32,695 nt of DNA, taken from NCBI GenBank assembly GCA_017454005.1, contig JAFTDU010000084.1:1-32695 (forward strand). The letters run 5' to 3'. Made by a program: the position numbers and the translations under genes. Below, piece after piece: positions 259 through 19,131 of this stretch (the first letter of the stretch is position 1; every line of letters starts with the position of its first letter). The notes under the pieces were generated by a model. That model was given only the letters and a program-made list of their open reading frames with translations, was not told the origin of the DNA and did not search any database. Source of the DNA: Desulfovibrionaceae bacterium (lineage in GTDB: Bacteria; Desulfobacterota; Desulfovibrionia; Desulfovibrionales; Desulfovibrionaceae).

Positions 259-1344
259 TTAGCGCTCAGTGCATGACACACAGGGGTCAATGCTATTGAG
301 CACAAGAGCAACTTCAGCGATTTGACAACCCCGCATCATCACTCCCAAAGCCTTCCAATTCATATAAGAAGGCACACGCCACTTTAACCTGGCCGGTGTA
401 TCAGAACCGTTCGTCCGGATATAGTAGGCGACTTCACCGCGGGGTGCTTCGGTATGGGCAAAAGCTTCCGTAACGGGGATTTGTACCATGGGAGCACGTA
501 CAGGCCCGTGAGGCATGCGTTCGCAACATTGTCTGATCAGTTTCATTGATTCAAACAATTCGCGGATACGCACCATCGTTCTTGAATGCACGCAGCAGCC
601 ATCTTCCACAATCATATCAAATTCAAGATTAGGATAGGCAGCATAAGGTGAATCAAAACGCACATCACGCCGTAAACCTGAACCACGGGCCACAGGGCCA
701 CAAACACCTAAAGCTTCAGCATCTTCAGGCGGCAAGAGACCCAAACCTTTAGTTCTTGTGAGCATGATGTGATTATTCTCAAAAATATCACGCAGCTCTT
801 CTAGTTGAGGCTCAATGACATCAAGTTGTTTCAAAATATATTCAATTAACTCATCATCAACATCAGACTTGACACCACCGATGCAGTTAGTAGCTAGATT
901 CATGCGGTTGCCATAGACGGTTTCTTTGACATCCTGCATGATTTCTCTAACTTCCATCACATGCATAAACAGAGATTTAAAGCCAGCGATATGGGCTTGA
1001 ATGGCTGTATTAAAGAGATGGGACGCAATGCGTTTAATCTCTTCAGCCATAACCCGTAAATATTTGGCTCTCTCAGGAATTTCGAGATTTAAAGCGTTCT
1101 CAACAACATTACAATAGGTGAAAGAGTGACTATTGGAACATAAGGAGCAGACCCGTTCCGTTAAAGTCACATTCTTCACCAAATTGCGTTGCATGGCCAA
1201 GCGCTCCATCCCACGGTGGACATGGCCTGAGGTCAGCTCAACATTTTTAATGTTTTCGCCTTCAACGGTCAGATTGAAATAGACCGGCTCCTCAAGTGCC
1301 ACATGCACTGGCCCTAGGGGCATTGTATAGGTAGTGATGCTCAT
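259..1344 (-). CDS. cooH: Group 4 [NiFe]-hydrogenase catalytic large subunit, CooH type
   Basis: 361 residues, related to the 49-kDa subunit of complex I (NuoD). The nickel-binding motifs of [NiFe]-hydrogenases are both present: RVCSLC near the N-terminus (Cys66, Cys69) and DPCVSC at the C-terminus (Cys355, Cys358). The active site is therefore expected to be a real hydrogenase centre rather than a quinone site. The protein ends three residues after the last cysteine, so there is no C-terminal extension to be cleaved by a maturation protease, which fits Coo/Ech-type enzymes. Its ATG overlaps the end of cooU (ATGA type), showing translational coupling. It would reduce protons to H2 (or oxidise H2) at the cytoplasmic face of the membrane complex. 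The symbol rests on gene order with cooM; EchE is the closest alternative name. Confidence 0.93.
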   Translation of the reverse strand: MSITTYTMPLGPVHVALEEPVYFNLTVEGENIKNVELTSGHVHRGMERLAMQRNLVKNVTLTERVCSLCSNSHSFTYCNVVENALNLEIPERAKYLRVMAEEIKRIASHLFNTAIQAHIAGFKSLFMHVMEVREIMQDVKETVYGNRMNLATNCIGGVKSDVDDELIEYILKQLDVIEPQLEELRDIFENNHIMLTRTKGLGLLPPEDAEALGVCGPVARGSGLRRDVRFDSPYAAYPNLEFDMIVEDGCCVHSRTMVRIRELFESMKLIRQCCERMPHGPVRAPMVQIPVTEAFAHTEAPRGEVAYYIRTNGSDTPARLKWRVPSYMNWKALGVMMRGCQIAEVALVLNSIDPCVSCTER

Positions 1345-1877
1345 GCCTGTTGCTCCTTAGAACTGAGAATACGCTCCCAAAGATCCTTGGAACTCGCCCC
1401 ATTCATCATCACAGACAGAGGAATGGCTGTTGAGAGTTGCCCCGCATCGAGGGTTTCATCCAAGAAGAGACGTTTGGGATTGGGATGATCGGTCACTTTG
1501 ACCTTATATAACTCCATAATTTCCCGCTCATGCCAATCGGCATTGGCAAAATCAGGGGTAATGGATGGAACAATGGGCCATTCAGCGTTCTGGACCACTG
1601 TGAAATTGTAAATGACACCTTCCACTTCAAAGTGGTAGCACAATTCTTTCATCAAGAGATCAGCATCTTTATTTTCGTAAGCTGAAATCATGATGAGGCG
1701 TGCCCTAAACGCTTTTAAAAATTTGGCCGCATCTTTGATTTTATTGGGGCTAGCCAAACGGAACCAATGGTAGCTGTTACCATAACGGTCTGCCGAATGC
1801 CGAATGTCATCCTCATTGGCACAGAGAGGCGTCAGGTTGTCTATTAATTGGGTATGCCCCTTGATAATCTCCTGCAT
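1341..1877 (-). CDS. cooU: Hydrogenase 30-kDa-type subunit (NuoC-like), CooU
   Basis: 178 residues, related to the NuoC/30-kDa subunit of complex I and EchD. The central segment with HEREIMELYKVKVTDHPNPK (residues about 115-134) is the family signature (usually ...ERE.yDl.Gv.f..HP...R). The subunit is a structural peripheral-arm protein that holds large and small subunits together; no cofactor ligands are evident. A Shine-Dalgarno-like AAAGGA lies just upstream of the ATG at 1877. It sits 29 nt downstream of cooX and overlaps cooH by 4 nt, so it is part of the same transcript. Confidence 0.88.
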   Translation of the reverse strand: MQEIIKGHTQLIDNLTPLCANEDDIRHSADRYGNSYHWFRLASPNKIKDAAKFLKAFRARLIMISAYENKDADLLMKELCYHFEVEGVIYNFTVVQNAEWPIVPSITPDFANADWHEREIMELYKVKVTDHPNPKRLFLDETLDAGQLSTAIPLSVMMNGASSKDLWERILSSKEQQA

Positions 1878-1906
1878 AGTTTATCCTTTCCTGTGAATGA
1901 AGATTC

Positions 1907-2452
1907 TTAAGATTCCACAGCAGGCTGTTCAGCAGCAGCTGGCAATCCAGCACTGCGCCGTGCATCTTCCAATTGCCGACATGCAGGGCAGAGATGTTGT
2001 ACATGCTCTAAATCAATGTCGGAATTGTTTACATAGAGTTTTTTCAAAATTTCAGTCGGCACAGGACGAATCTTCTTGCCACATACACTGCAGGGTTCGT
2101 ATTGAATGCTCTTCTGCTCCACTACATTATACTTATCACGCTCTTCGTGAGCTGAATGCCAATCCTTAACTAAGGTAATGGCATGTACGGGGCAGAATTG
2201 TTTACAAGAAGCACAGCGGCAACAAGCATTATGCCATATGGTAATGGTGTGTCCTTCTTCGGTATGCTGAATATTTATGGCGCCAGCTACACAGCTATAG
2301 ACACAAATACCACACCCCATGCACAAGGTTTCATCAACAACGACCTTGCCACGCAAGCGCTCTGGCTCCATCCGGGTGGGTCCCAGAGGAAAGGGATCCG
2401 TACTTGGGCCTTCGAGCAAATTGCGAAATAGGACTTTTAAAAAGCCTGCCAT
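1907..2452 (-). CDS. cooX: Polyferredoxin-like hydrogenase subunit (NuoI-like), CooX
   Basis: 181 residues. Two 4Fe-4S binding motifs are visible: CMGCGICVYSC (about residues 44-54) and CRCASCKQFCP (about 78-88), as in NuoI, EchF and CooX. A second cysteine pattern, CSVCGKK...CPACR, in the C-terminal third looks like a zinc-ribbon and may be structural. The protein would pass electrons between ferredoxin and the small-subunit cluster. The final cysteine of the first motif is followed by Val rather than the usual Pro. It begins one nucleotide after cooL ends, so it is tightly coupled within the operon. Confidence 0.9.
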   Translation of the reverse strand: MAGFLKVLFRNLLEGPSTDPFPLGPTRMEPERLRGKVVVDETLCMGCGICVYSCVAGAINIQHTEEGHTITIWHNACCRCASCKQFCPVHAITLVKDWHSAHEERDKYNVVEQKSIQYEPCSVCGKKIRPVPTEILKKLYVNNSDIDLEHVQHLCPACRQLEDARRSAGLPAAAEQPAVES

Positions 2453-2453
2453 C

Positions 2454-2903
2454 TTATGCCTCCAGACCCAATTTTTGCTTCCAGATCTTCAGTCCCAGGG
2501 CCACGGCCTCTAAAATTGCCTGCGGACGAGGTGGACAGCCAGGCACATTGACATCAATAGGAATATATTTGTCGATGGGGCCTGTAATGGAATAGCCCTC
2601 GCGGAACACGCCACCAGAAATGGGGCAAATGCCTACAGCAACCGTAACTTTAGGCTCGGGAATTTCATTCCATACACGTAAGACTTGGTCGTGGATACGT
2701 GCAGTCAAAGGCCCTGTAATCAACACAATATCAGCATGGCGTGGGCTACCGCAGTACCGACAACCTAAGCGTTCTACGTCATACCGAGGAATTAAAGCGG
2801 TGGTAGCTAATTCTACGTCGCAGCCATTGCAAGAACCGGCGTTAATACGGAATAACCAGGGAGAGCGTACCGAGTTCTTTTTGAGCAAATCGTCAAAAGC
2901 CAT
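2454..2903 (-). CDS. cooL: Hydrogenase small subunit (NuoB-like), CooL
   Basis: 149 residues. The N-terminal GSCNGCDVE motif (about residues 23-31), the later Cys in VGICPISGG and the GCPPRP motif near residue 122 supply the four cysteines of the proximal 4Fe-4S cluster found in NuoB, EchC and CooL. This subunit takes electrons from the CooX clusters to the nickel site in CooH. It lacks the twin-arginine leader of periplasmic hydrogenases, agreeing with a cytoplasm-facing complex. It is 10 nt downstream of cooK. Confidence 0.93.
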   Translation of the reverse strand: MAFDDLLKKNSVRSPWLFRINAGSCNGCDVELATTALIPRYDVERLGCRYCGSPRHADIVLITGPLTARIHDQVLRVWNEIPEPKVTVAVGICPISGGVFREGYSITGPIDKYIPIDVNVPGCPPRPQAILEAVALGLKIWKQKLGLEA

Positions 2904-2913
2904 TCTTGCCTCC

Positions 2914-3882
2914 TTACATCAACCAGACTAGCAATAGGCTGCACAAAGCTAGCATCGTGGGCACTAAAACAAAGAAACGGAAAGCCTGATCGATGCGGTA
3001 CCGACCTGTAGCTGACTTCACAACGGTCAGCGAAACAAGCATGAGTACAAGACACTTAGCAAGGAACCATAAGAGATTTATTAACCAGAAATCACAAATA
3101 GTTCCTGGGAAGAACATGGCTACGCCCAAACCTAAAACTACGAAGGTCTTGAGAGCGGAACCAACATGGAAAAGGGCCAATAAGGGGCCGCCATATTCCA
3201 ATAAGGGACCTTCCACGACTTCCGTTTCAGCCTCAGGAATATCAAACGGCGCTACGCCCATGGTACCGGGTAAGAAAATCAAGTAGGCTAAGAAGGCGGG
3301 AATCATCACGGGATTGAAGCCCAAGGATCCATTGGCTTCTTGCCATTCGACGATCTTTAACAAAGAAAATTCAGCACCCCAGTCACCACCATTAAGAGAC
3401 TTACCTACTAACATAGCAGTAGCTAAGAGAATCATTAATAGAGGTGTTTCATAGGCAAGCATGATGATCATCTCACGCGAAAAACCTACGGCACCAAAAG
3501 GTGAACTGGATGCAGAACCACCCATCATCATAGCTATAGCCGGAATGGGTAAGAGATAGAACAACACAAGCAGGTCGCCCATGTTGTAAAGTCCATCAAA
3601 AACCCCAGGCACAGGAATAAACGCTGCACACACGGCCATACCGGCAAAGCCAACAACTGGCGCGAGTAAAAACGCTTCTTTGCAGGCAGTTTTAGGAATC
3701 AAGGTTTCTTTGGTTAAGAGTTTCGCTGTATCCAACCAAGGTTGGACTAATGGAGGCCCTACACGGCGCTGCAGTCTGGCCTCTACGCGGCGGTCAAGGC
3801 CTTTAAAGAAAAAGCCGATCACCAGAGCAAAGATGCCTCCGGGAAAGATAAGCATATGTAAAATGCCGAGCAACGTATCCAT
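2914..3882 (-). CDS. cooK: Hydrogenase membrane subunit (NuoH-like), CooK
   Basis: 322 residues from the ATG at 3882, which shares one base with the cooM stop codon (TAATG). The open frame extends further upstream but that part lies inside cooM. The protein is mostly hydrophobic, with about eight predicted membrane helices. It contains the NuoH/EchB loops LDRRVEARLQRRVGPPLVQP (about residues 24-43) and PFDIPEAETEVVEGPLLEYG (about 208-227), the acidic stretch that lies at the junction of peripheral and membrane arms. It anchors the hydrogenase module and is thought in this family to start the conformational or charge signal that drives ion pumping. Confidence 0.92.
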   Translation of the reverse strand: MDTLLGILHMLIFPGGIFALVIGFFFKGLDRRVEARLQRRVGPPLVQPWLDTAKLLTKETLIPKTACKEAFLLAPVVGFAGMAVCAAFIPVPGVFDGLYNMGDLLVLFYLLPIPAIAMMMGGSASSSPFGAVGFSREMIIMLAYETPLLMILLATAMLVGKSLNGGDWGAEFSLLKIVEWQEANGSLGFNPVMIPAFLAYLIFLPGTMGVAPFDIPEAETEVVEGPLLEYGGPLLALFHVGSALKTFVVLGLGVAMFFPGTICDFWLINLLWFLAKCLVLMLVSLTVVKSATGRYRIDQAFRFFVLVPTMLALCSLLLVWLM

Positions 3883-6800
3883 TAACGCACCTCCCGAGAC
3901 ACTAAGGAGAGCCCAAGATTCTTCAGGGCGCCAAAGACACTGGAGGGATCCATGCGGCTCGTGGCCTGACTGACGGGCACACCGCAAGTGTAAACGTCAA
4001 TTTCCCGCAGATGGGTAAAGCGCTTGACAAAGTAACGGCCAGCAAAGAAAGCAATGGCCATCATAATAAACATGCCTGTGGCATTCCATGTACCAGGACC
4101 TGACAAGACACCAGATAAACCGATATCTAAAGTCTGTGCACCATATTCACCGAGGATCGTATTAATGGGCGCTAAGGCTAAGCCTGGGAAGATACCAGTA
4201 ATGATACAGCCGAGGCCTAAAATACCCATGGGTATACGCATAACCCGTGGTGCTTCATGCACATCGTCCAAATCAGTGGCGGGTTGACCCAAGAAAGCTG
4301 CATGCATGAACTTGGCAATGTAGGCCAAGGTCAAGACACTACCAAATAATGACAGGAGAGCTAAGAAAGGTTGCCCTGCTTGCATTAAGGCATGGTAGAT
4401 TAACCACTTGGAAGAGAAGCCACTTGTTGGCGGCACACCTACAACAGAGAGACCAGCAATAGCAAACATAGCTAAGGTAAAGGGCATCTTACGACCAATA
4501 CCACCTAATTGTTCCAAGGTCTCACGGTGTGTGGTGAACATGACTGCACCACAGATCAAGAAGAGCAGGTCTTTGAAGAAGATGTGGTTGACGATATGTA
4601 ACATTCCACCTGCATAGCCTAAGGCAGTACCTGCACCTACGGCTAAGACCATGTAGCCTAATTGGCTCACTGTGGAATAGATAAACATCAATTTGAGACC
4701 ATTGGTCATCATAGCCTTTACAGCAGCCATGATAATAGTAATGGCACCAATCCACATAACAATAATATTCAGCACATCACGCTCAGTGGTATTCAACATG
4801 CCAGCCAGCACGAAACCACCACCAAGTAACATGAAGAGCTTAATCAGACCAAATAAAGCACTCTTAAGTAAAACAGAGGAGATGAAACCCGACACAGGCG
4901 TAGGTGCCACAGCTGGGTGCATCTGCCAATCAATACGGAAGGGCAATTGGGCAGCCTTCATCACAAAGCCAATGGCTAAGAGGGCCATACCCACAAAGGC
5001 ACCATGGCTAACATTGGGCAAGGCACCTTGGGTTAAGACGGATAGATTGAAAGGTGTGAAGGGTCCAATTACGCAGACAGCTACAAAGAGGAAGCCTGCG
5101 CCAGCCATATTGAACATGAAATATTTGAAAGCCTCCCGCATGGAGAGGTTGTCACCTTCATGAGCTAAGGCCATGTATAAACACCAAGAACTCATGATTT
5201 CCCAGAAGAGGAAGAAGCTTAAGAGATACTGGCTAGCTGCCATACCCACTAAGCCACCGCACATGCAGGTAAAGGCCGCAAAGAAGCGCCATTGGGTGTG
5301 GGAGTGTTCCATGTAACCAATAGCATAGGCCATATTCACGGCACCAATGATCGGCACAAGGAGGGCAAAGCAGTAGGAGAGCATATCTAAATCGCGCCCA
5401 AAGATAAGCACAAGCAGAGCTGTAAGTAAGAGGACACCTACACTTGCCTGGCCAGCCTTGACACGATTGTTCGCGAAGAAAGCAGGTAAGAGCGCACCAA
5501 ATACTGGGACAATAACATAAATGGGCCATGGTACACTGATGCAATCCATGATGGTCTTATCAACAGGTACTGCACCAAAGCACATATTAGCCACATTAGA
5601 GACTAAGTACATGGGGGCTTGGGGCACTAAAGCCATTAAGAGACTTAAGACTGCCAAGACACCCATGGCAATACGCATGGTGAAAGGAGCTTCAGCTACA
5701 TGCGGCATGTCGGCAGGACGCTTTTCAAAGACAATCGTCTTTAAAATACGTGTATAGTAAATAGCACCCACTAAGGAACCGACAAAGATTAAGACAGCGA
5801 GACCCATGTGCCCAGAATCAATGGCAGCTTGGATCATTAATAATTTGCTATAAAAGGCGCCAAATGGTGGCAAACCCATGATGCTGACTAAACCAACGGC
5901 CATAAAGCCAGCAGTCCAAGGCATGTTCTGCCCAATACCACGTAAATCTGCTAACTTACGACTTCCAGCCCGCAGAATTAAAGCACCTGCGCCCAAGAAG
6001 AGTAAGTCCTTCATGATGGCGTGATTGAGCATGTGCCAAAGGGCACCGGTTGTCGCAAGCCATGTGCCTAAGCCTAAGACCAAGGCGATTTCACCCACTT
6101 GACCTAAGGTCGAGTAGGCTAACATGCGTTTAATGTCTTGCTGCAACAAAGCCATGATTTCGCCATAGATTAAGGTGGCGACACCCATGGCGCAGAGGCC
6201 TGTGCCAAACCAACTCATGCCGAGCAAACCACCAAACTTGGCACTTGCTGTACCGGCACCCAACATGACAACACTGATTAACCCAAAAAAGCCCATCTTG
6301 GTGATGATACCAGAGAGGGGACCTGAAACTGACGACGGGGCGGCAGGGTGAGCATCAGGGAGCCAGGAATGCAGAGGCACGAGACCGGCTTTAACACCAA
6401 AACCAACCAAGCATAAAAAGGCCGCAAATTTAAAGATGCCAGGTGATTGGGCCAAATTGACCATGTCACCAGAGAATTGCCCAAGGATATGCAGGCCAGG
6501 CAACATGAATAAAGCTCCACCTGCACACATGACATAATATTTGAGACCCGCTTCAAAAGCTGTAGGCTTGAGTTCATGTACTACTAAGAAGTAAGAGGCA
6601 AAGGTCATTAACTCCCAGTAGCCATACATGGCACTGGCTTCACTGGCGGACACGATGCCGGCGAGTGAGGCAAATGTCAAAAGTAAGAAGAACCAATACC
6701 AGCCTTTGCGTTCACGAATGTAACTCAAAGAGTACAGGCTAACTACTAAAGCGATAACAGTCACCATGACCAAGAAGAGTTGTGCTAAAGCCTGGGCAGG

Positions 6801-17858: not shown

Positions 17859-18365
17859 TCACATAAGCTTTAAATAGGCCAATAATACATTAGCACTGCC
17901 AATGATTAAAGGCGTTAAAATTTTATCTAATACTTTTGTAAATAATAAGACCATTAAAATTAAAAACCCATAACGTTCAAGACGCATATATTGAATGGCT
18001 TGCGCTGTTGGTAAAAAGAAGGCTACTACGCGACTGCCATCCAAAGGCGGTATGGGTATAAGATTAAGCCAGGCCAAACATAAATTGATATAGACGCCGG
18101 CTTTAAAGGCTTGCAAAACTAACACACAACTGGGGTAGTTATGCCAAAAGGTTGGTGGGATAAAGGTTAAACTTAACCACAAGAGGCCCGCAAAAAATAA
18201 GGCCAAAAGAAAATTGGTACATGGGCCTGCTAGTGCCACCAACATCATGCCTTGGCGGGGTTTATGAAAAAATTGTGGCTGCACAGGCACAGGTTTGGCC
18301 CAGCCAAAGACAAAGGCCCCTGACAAACTTGTGAGCACAAAAACAAGTAAACCGAAGATGATCGC
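17859..18365 (-). CDS. M50 site-2 protease, exon 2 (C-terminal three quarters)
   Basis: 168 residues plus stop, reading in frame from GCG-ATC-ATC at 18365. It contains VFGWAKPVPV, the GMMLVALAGPCTNFLLA helix and the NLIPIPPLDGSR motif, whose Asp is the third zinc ligand of the family. At least four membrane helices are visible. The N-terminal zinc motif HEVAH is missing here and is found in exon 1, 592 nt upstream. Joining the two parts gives a 226-residue protein of normal length for YwhC-like bacterial site-2 proteases. A GTG at 18338 could start translation of this part alone, but that product would lack the catalytic motif. Followed 18 nt later by trpS. Confidence 0.85.
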   Translation of the reverse strand, partial: AIIFGLLVFVLTSLSGAFVFGWAKPVPVQPQFFHKPRQGMMLVALAGPCTNFLLALFFAGLLWLSLTFIPPTFWHNYPSCVLVLQAFKAGVYINLCLAWLNLIPIPPLDGSRVVAFFLPTAQAIQYMRLERYGFLILMVLLFTKVLDKILTPLIIGSANVLLAYLKLM

Positions 18366-18957
18366 ACACCCTTTTTAAGCCCAAGCCTTAAAGGCAAAGC
18401 TTTTACTCTATAAAATCTGCAGAGCTAAAGTTTAAGCTTTGCTACAATTTGTCGCAAGTAAATTTTAGAGGCTAATAAGCTCAAGTGTCGTGTGCCAAAA
18501 GACGCAATTCGCCATGGATTTTGGCAAAAGCACTTAAAAAGAAGGTGCAAGATCAAAATGAGTGTTCACGGGAAGACGCAACTCTTCCGCAGTCTTGCCT
18601 CACGCAGACCTCTTATGCTTTCACATAAGCGCAGACTATATCTTCACCCGAATACGGGGCAACATTTTTCTTCCGGCCTAAGCTTCCGGCTTTACTCTCC
18701 CACGTAGGAGATAGTCGTTGAGGGTGTTCCATAGCTTTTGCCTTAGGAGAGTCCCTGCTAATGACCCATTAGATAGCGTTTAGGAGTAGCTTGCGCCACC
18801 TTTCCTTTAACCTTGCGCCATCCATGCAGTTTTTTCTGCTTTCGCACCAGTTGCAGCTTGATGTTTCCACCTACTGTTTAGGTTGCATGGCTTTAGGGCT
18901 TCAAAGCATTTAACGTTGCGTTCGCAGCAATTACTCGCTACGAAGGGTAGCTTGTTT
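18366..18957 (-). other. Group I self-splicing intron (IA-like), without endonuclease ORF
   Basis: The insert separates two in-frame halves of the protease gene. On the RNA (minus) strand the core has an R-type segment CUCAACGACUAU (18711-18722 region) and an S-type segment AAGAUAUAGUC (18634-18644). They form P7 by GACUAU (18711-18716) pairing with AUAGUC (18634-18639). Between them are two hairpins, about 18698-18713 and 18672-18690, placed as P7.1/P7.2, which is typical of subgroup IA. A GUUGC strand (18659-18663) fits P3 with GCAAC at 18882-18886, and a P8 hairpin CCCG-UAUU-CGGG lies at 18647-18658. A P9 hairpin (CUUAUG...CAUAAG) follows P7. The P-type strand CUAAACAGUAGG (about 18870-18881) resembles phage introns such as T4 td. 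The 5' exon ends in U. Exact splice points are uncertain by a few bases, and about 200 nt of weakly structured sequence lies before exon 2. Confidence 0.85.
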
Positions 18958-19131
18958 ACCCACAGGATCAATATGCGGCAGGGGATTTAAGGTGAGCCTG
19001 CCAGCTTGCCACGCTGTGGGATCGCCTTGGCGATAAGCGACCCAACCGTGCGCGACCTCATGCAAAATAATTCCTGCCATGGCGGGAACTATGTAAATTA
19101 GGAGACGTTGAAGGAAATCTATTTGCTCCAT
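18958..19131 (-). CDS. M50 site-2 protease, exon 1 (N-terminal zinc-binding part)
   Basis: 58 codons, MEQIDFLQRL to LPHIDPVG. It carries the zinc metalloprotease motif HEVAH (His24, Glu25, His28) in a membrane helix and the family sequence RLTLNPLPHIDPVG. If the transcript is not spliced, translation adds eight foreign residues (KQATLRSE) and stops at a TAA. The protein continues in exon 2. The family cleaves membrane-embedded substrates; no partner can be named from context. AAGGAG lies 15 bases upstream of the ATG, farther than usual, so initiation may be inefficient. Confidence 0.85.

Follow-up and report, generated by a model that had tools for sequence, protein, structure and literature searches.

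A Probable Self-Splicing, Transposon-Derived Group I Intron in an M50 Protease Gene and Its Many Copies in a Desulfovibrionaceae-Like Genome

Results and Discussion

An M50 Protease Gene Interrupted by an Insert

The window (the whole stretch of 32,695 nucleotides that was analyzed) carries on its minus strand, around 18.3–19.0 kb, the ORF of an M50 protease, which the ORF list of the window gives as two pieces; the interruption described in the earlier note was thereby confirmed (table 1). A search of 901 bases with the Rfam group I intron model RF00028, the check proposed in that note, returned a match at 18612–18969 of the minus strand (33.7 bits, E 1.1e-6), although the gathering score of 50 was not reached and a search of the whole window at the gathering threshold was empty. 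Taken alone, this match is modest evidence for a group I intron. The claim of a group I intron in a protein-coding gene with its exons in frame was supported.

Intact proteins of relatives place the joint at HIDPV-G followed by LLVFVLTSL. When 4892 combinations of boundary and frame were scored, the one in which exon 1 ends in GGG and the intron in CGG was among six tied best, and the tied positions read HIDPVG-LLVF. The insert had initially been placed at 18366–18957, which is one base off at the 5′ end and 14 bases short at the 3′ end. Two other joints, HIDPVG-IIFG and HIDPVG-A-IIFG, were rejected, as their extra residues have no counterpart in the relatives. The predicted spliced product reads HIDPVG-LLVFVLTSLSGAF and has 221 residues instead of the 226 first proposed, the five residues AIIFG being absent from intact homologues; the predicted exon junction in the RNA joins GTGGG to TTTACTTG. 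The Pfam model PF02163 scored 47.2 bits on the downstream ORF alone and 53.7 bits on the joined protein, in which its best stretch does not cross the joint, and no NCBIfam model matched the joined protease in a search of 10 joined proteins. A second copy of the protease, which would have counted against the reading of the earlier note, was not found in the genome assembly, which is 67.85% complete.

Table 1. Coordinates of the Interrupted Protease Gene and of the Elements of Its Insert
Feature	Position	Strand	Description	Basis
Exon 1, M50 (site-2 protease family) gene	18959–19131	−	Ends ...HIDPV-G at GTGGG; GGG is 18959–18961	ORF list, relatives' proteins
Probable group B IStron-type group I intron, 607 nt	18352–18958	−	First base T; end CATCTTCGG	Joint search
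Exon 2, M50 gene	17859–18351	−	LLVFVLTSLSGAFVFGWAKPVPV...	ORF list, relatives' proteins, PF02163
Conserved ribozyme core	18563–18949	−	Ends GTGAACA	nhmmer, alignment, RF00028
CCC of proposed internal guide	18945–18947	−	Would pair with exon GGG (P1)	Invariant in 25/25 copies
P2 hairpin	18921–18944	−	100% of cells paired	5/10 pairs changed on both sides
P3, 5′ strand	18912–18918	−	Partner 18660–18666	
P3, 3′ strand	18660–18666	−	Partner 18912–18918	
P7, 5′ strand	18712–18716	−	GACTA; guanosine-binding helix	Invariant in 25/25
P7, 3′ strand	18634–18638	−	TAGTC	Invariant in 25/25
P7.1 and P7.2 hairpins	18674–18711	−	Typical of class IA2 (PMC4227781)	Compensatory changes
3′ inverted-repeat stem, 5′ arm	18523–18556	−	Partner about 18356–18388	
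3′ inverted-repeat stem, 3′ arm	18356–18388	−	Directly before CGG end	

At Least 27 Copies in the Same Genome

The source genome (G000) is a draft of 1.97 Mb in 120 contigs. The DNA of the insert matched 38 places in it (E up to 0.001). With an nhmmer profile of the family, these were resolved into 23 full cores, of which two are interrupted, and into pieces at eight contig ends, four of them 5′ and four 3′. The full cores and the 5′ pieces together give at least 27 copies; that the insert is one of many, which the earlier note had missed, is the decisive result. If three of the 3′ pieces are assigned to further genes, as we read them, the number would be 29 or 30. An exact family motif had 27 matches in the genome and the reversed control pattern none. 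RF00028 matched 26 places, one of them over the cut-off of 50. Identity to the window copy ranged from 68% to 81% in the longer DNA matches.

Several copies show peculiarities of arrangement. At L010 (G000:C50:19633-24442, nth) and L024 (G000:C18, truB), two cores lie within a few hundred bases of each other in one gene each, and in nth the second core sits inside the tail of the first, resembling a nested intron. At L021 and L026 (G000:C68 and C75), the ribozyme core is interrupted mid-way by ~150–200 nt of other sequence. The eight contig ends inside introns belong to C13, C24, C50, C53, C78 (twice), C85, and C113. Since contigs break within introns, repeats of the intron family appear to limit the assembly; in addition, genes split by the copies may lower completeness estimates.

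A Common Joint Rule across Host Genes

Open proteins resulted when the flanking sequences were joined at 14 places, which lie in 13 genes, and intact homologues of these were sought in four genomes of the same genus. By tblastn, a homologue spanning the joint was found for 12 of the 14 joints; none was found for glmS, with only three residues in exon 1, or for rtcB. Compared with the homologues, the joints first guessed made the protease longer by five residues and the topA product by one, and both 3′ ends were therefore moved to a CGG. In a scoring free of any rule, all pairs of boundaries up to 36 bases from the guess were compared with up to four homologues (1155 to 4892 combinations per joint), and the arrangement in which exon 1 ends in GGG and the intron in GG was among the tied best in nine of the 12 joints (11 genes). 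The topA joint scored 236.5 under this rule versus a best of 239.5, and the joints of polA and nth are each one base away from it. For another eight joints, the rule guided a placement by eye; these are in glmS, rtcB, an M15 peptidase gene, a gene that we take to be DVU0772-like, DUF4851, cobO, argF, and ppiB, and all eight are in frame. That of ppiB spans contigs C53 and C78 and was read from their sequences, not found by script.

Overall, exon 1 ends in GGG, the intron ends in GG, and the frame is kept in 18 of 20 joints from 19 genes, including glmS, topA, polA, rpsF, thyX, panC, HU, and endA (two joints). The 3′ end in the 18 joints that follow the rule is CGG in 12 (the window copy among them), TGG in five, and AGG in one. 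Splicing after GGGY was rejected, as the last base of the intron would then vary. The two copies in truB are an exception, a simple join of GGG to the sequence behind CGG being out of frame, and no partner exon was identified for six cut copies and for the copy at L029. All resolved copies are in the sense orientation of their genes, only sense joins having been made. The endonuclease I gene (L014, G000:C85:1-3801) holds two separate introns, both between codons for W and E (TGGG/A); once the exons are joined at the two sites, the PF04231 match of the protein extends across each of them.

Apart from their frames, the joined proteins were compared with protein family models. Five of 10 passed the curated NCBIfam cut-offs (GlmS, PanC, RpsF, Nth, and an [FeFe] hydrogenase); joined ThyX reached 87.0 against a cut-off of 87.9, and endonuclease I, RtcB, and HU had matches below the cut-offs. 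The best Pfam stretch spans the joint in ArgF, CobO, DUF4851, and PolA, both joints in endonuclease I, and, marginally, the joint in TopA; in YcaO, it starts at the joint and does not cross it. For 11 of 13 tested genes, no other match was found in the genome (E 0.001), and the hydrogenase and HU have paralogues there with 48% identity or less.

A Covarying Class IA2 Core and a Copy-Specific 3′ Stem

The cores were aligned in 25 copies, 21 from the source genome and four from two relatives, G064 and G066. RNAalifold predicted 96 pairs, 40 with compensatory changes; after the P7 pseudoknot and the P9.1 helix were added and one conflicting helix was removed, the final structure had 98 pairs, with 98.5% of cells paired, 40 of the 98 pairs changed on both sides, and none of 500 shuffles as good. 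Slid structures paired 36–43% of cells, a gap that is partly built in because the fold was derived from the same alignment. P7, P7.1, P7.2, P3, P8, and P9, which had been proposed from the letters of the insert, were all found. All five pairs of P7 are formed in all 25 copies, and P3 shows compensatory changes. The catalytic P3-P7-P8 core, P7.1/P7.2, and an extended P9, all of which are present here, are features of class IA2. Under the joint rule, the last base of exon 1 is G and not the U of the canonical U-G pair. The core ends in GTGAACA in 23 of the aligned copies and in GTGAACT or GTGAACG in the other two, and the window copy reads GAACAC here. Folding of the whole insert gave a z score of −1.54.

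Behind the core, the tail is 8 to 1807 nt long among resolved copies. The two ends of the window copy's tail form a duplex of −30.3 kcal/mol, and neither 300 shuffles nor 13 swapped ends were as low. Of 20 tails tested, 14 are at least 90 nt long, and in every one of these the two ends pair in this way, none of 13 swapped ends pairing as well. Three short tails were unconvincing, shuffles being as low in 15/300 cases for topA, 29/300 for thyX, and 45/300 for nth. The DVU0772-like copy, outside the 20, has only 8 nt after the core and hence no 3′ stem. Random decay as the source of the tails was rejected, as both ends of most tails pair. In the rtcB intron (L028 2457-2743), the loop of the 3′ stem is largely a TAGATAGATG-like simple repeat.

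TnpB Genes and a Probable IStron Identity

Later work on IStrons, by Zedaveinyte et al. in 2024, reportedly concerns TnpB. In the genome studied here, a frameshifted TnpB gene lies inside the copy on C13, between the core and a right end, TTTATCGTAGCGG, and an open TnpB frame of 396 codons on C11 is followed by the same right end; by eye, the core upstream of the latter is at most a remnant. PF07282 matched three places in the genome, the third of which, on C110, is less alike. No TnpB match was obtained in the window copy or in the argF intron (2614 nt). The gene hosting the TnpB-bearing copy (L075 1978-4425, minus strand) has an exon 2 of 816 codons, and its end overlaps a long low-complexity repeat that reads LIKLIKL in another frame.

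Neither an IS607 serine recombinase (PF00239, zero matches) nor a Y1 transposase was found in the genome assembly, which is 67.85% complete; thus, the assignment to an IS607 origin rests on the ends and on TnpB. When 10 tails were compared, that of truB was found to keep three pieces of the TnpB copy, namely the right end and two internal ones, and nothing notable was seen in the other tails aligned to each other. Because the truB copy retains these pieces, copies lacking ORFs look like deletion derivatives.

In the survey of Tourasse et al. (2014; PMC4227781), group B IStrons are class IA2 elements inserted after sites ending in GG (AGGG, TGGG), with G as the normal last base of exon 1 and a CGG 3′ end. 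Their IS part follows a GAACA-type motif (GAACAA/GAACAC) behind P9.2, and a long inverted-repeat stem encloses the ORF region; ORF B encodes TnpB and ORF A the IS607 recombinase, ORF A being truncated or missing in several elements. All of these traits were found in our family except ORF A, with CGG in 12 of the 18 joints.

The Family in Other Genomes

Of 79 genomes of the genus that were surveyed with RF00028 (E 0.001, stricter filters), five had matches: the source genome at 22 places, G066 at six, and three others at one each. The family profile clearly recognized five of the six places in G066, and G064 as well; the sixth (L113, G066:C70:2000-9000) is a weak and partial match, in which a different, less similar group I core is followed by an ORF of 318 amino acids read as TnpB-like. 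From its sequence, L113 may be an IStron of this genus that carries an ORF. Three of three joins made by eye in G066 are in frame, in genes read as priA, a metal permease gene, and a WbsX-like gene. Group I introns in G080 and G081 were rejected as members, as the nhmmer family profile did not match them at E 10. Searching at the DNA level through 40 further genomes, of which 24 belong to the genus (G064 and G066 not included), gave no match.

The exact motif was also scanned for in a genome collection described as covering 84,980 species, from which the source genome was possibly left out. There were 49 matching stretches, of which seven were in RGIG3607 (G066) and one in RGIG3724 (G064), both goat-rumen MAGs titled Desulfovibrionaceae, in agreement with the host suggested in the earlier note. 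Records with Firmicutes names held 37 of the 49. Single matches came from MAGs labelled Synergistaceae (L178), Methanosphaera (L173), Gastranaerophilales (L151), and Anaerolineales (L133, a weak match to the family profile), which may represent IStron-like introns in further phyla or misbinned contigs. In addition, 20 stretches with the family motif were from viral contigs.

A tree was built from 42 cores, comprising 21 of the 23 full own cores and 21 others that we picked. The own copies fall into two subfamilies, each with copies from rumen Desulfovibrionaceae, and the window copy belongs to the smaller of them, where it shares a starred clade with three other own copies. The separation of these subfamilies from the Firmicutes rows depends on a weak fork (67/68).

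Proposed Origin and Alternative Explanations

We consider it very likely that the insert belongs to a family of group B, IS607-type IStrons and that it was transposed to a position after GGG and is spliced in frame. In such an IStron, a group I ribozyme of class IA2 would be combined with the ends of a transposon whose insertion site lies beside GG(G), and many genes would have received a copy behind a GGG through transposition. Once transcribed, the GGG of the exon would pair with the CCC of the guide (P1), and a guanosine bound in P7 would cut after GGG; the copy's own inverted-repeat stem would then bring the 3′ GG end close to the core, allowing the exons to be joined in frame. Most copies would have lost their ORFs and kept the ribozyme and the stem. 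The copies, their covarying fold, the joints, and the TnpB gene in one copy are observed; from this anatomy we infer splicing, the P1 pairing, and spread at the DNA level by an IS607 recombinase, which is absent from the genome assembly. On sequence grounds, the insert is probably self-splicing and transposon-derived. Against this explanation stand the joints of polA, nth, and topA, the truB copies, the 8-nt tail of the DVU0772-like copy, the poorly pairing tails in topA, thyX, and nth, the missing recombinases, the use of the rule in placing eight of the joints, and the cut copies and L029 copy for which no partner exon was identified.

A group I core in a conserved gene is also what an ordinary site-specific intron would leave after homing into the conserved protease motif, as the earlier note proposed. 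The site is, however, merely GTGGG, and the family, like group B IStrons, sits after GGG in many unrelated genes; at least 27 copies with only GGG in common, one of them with TnpB, make homing highly improbable. An artefact of assembly or contamination, which an incomplete draft of 120 contigs with eight contig ends inside introns might suggest, is equally hard to credit, as the family also occurs in RGIG3607 and RGIG3724 and the joints read by eye in the former are in frame.

Alternatively, the insertions might be dead, leaving the host genes as pseudogenes in a genome that is decaying. The completeness of 67.85%, the lack of TnpA, the frameshift in the TnpB of C13, the polA and nth joints that are one base off, and the truB copies that could not be joined in frame would agree with decay. 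Nevertheless, 18 of 20 joints are in frame, half of the 10 joined proteins exceed curated cut-offs, covariation is seen in the ribozyme fold and in the 3′ stems specific to each copy, and 11 of 13 tested genes, several of them normally essential, have no second copy; we therefore regard decay as quite unlikely. Reverse splicing into RNA followed by reverse transcription, in place of DNA transposition, would account for the few exon bases in common, for the many copies that lack TnpB, and for the sense orientation of the resolved copies (for which only sense joins were made). However, selection on insertions in genes also predicts sense orientation, the right ends and stems match those of IS607-type IStrons, and a copy with TnpB exists, so that this route, too, appears unlikely.

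We lean slightly toward the view that this is an intron-rich chromosome, invaded by two or more IStron subfamilies that lost their transposase and are now fixed, in which some 20 or more housekeeping genes would be expressed only via ribozyme splicing, with the 3′ stem of each copy under selection. Standard annotation would then call the split genes fragments, which may help explain the low completeness estimate. The IStron explanation by itself would extend IStrons beyond both phyla of the 2014 survey (PMC4227781) and would mean that a group I intron has spread across the housekeeping genes of a single bacterium. Such a genome would offer natural tests of how self-splicing makes transposons nearly neutral, of what maintains copies without ORFs, and of the ways in which intron-split genes may mislead annotation and completeness scores; moreover, the many diverged copies already supply an alignment from which the structure of the unusual 5′ splice site, with its final G, could be studied. 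Among the matches listed in the open-access literature, covering titles and abstract beginnings, no report of IStrons or group I introns of this kind in Desulfovibrionaceae was found.

Comparison with Known Systems

The closest counterparts in PMC4227781 are the group B IStrons BcISt1, LsISt1, SrISt1, and CbISt1-4, which share with our family the IA2 ribozyme, insertion after GGG, the G at the end of exon 1, the GAACA motif, the 3′ inverted-repeat stem, the CGG end, and TnpB. In the survey, IStrons are confined to Firmicutes and Fusobacteria, the highest number being 24 copies (C. difficile), and group B has one to four copies per strain; here, in contrast, the host is Desulfovibrionaceae-like, with at least 27 copies that are diverged and lodged in housekeeping genes, TnpB occurs in only one or two of them, and loop lengths are very different. 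CdISt1 of Clostridioides difficile, a group A IStron in the same source, likewise has many copies per genome (9–24), often in genes, but differs in its TTGAT-type target, its TCAG end, and its IS200/IS605 TnpA. The dsrA intron of Ca. Thiomargarita nelsonii, which carries a MITE, similarly belongs to class IA2, has a hairpin inserted in P9, and lies in a gene of core metabolism; it is a single intron in a single gene, and the available part of its description (PMC4853749) reports neither a GGG rule nor TnpB relatives.
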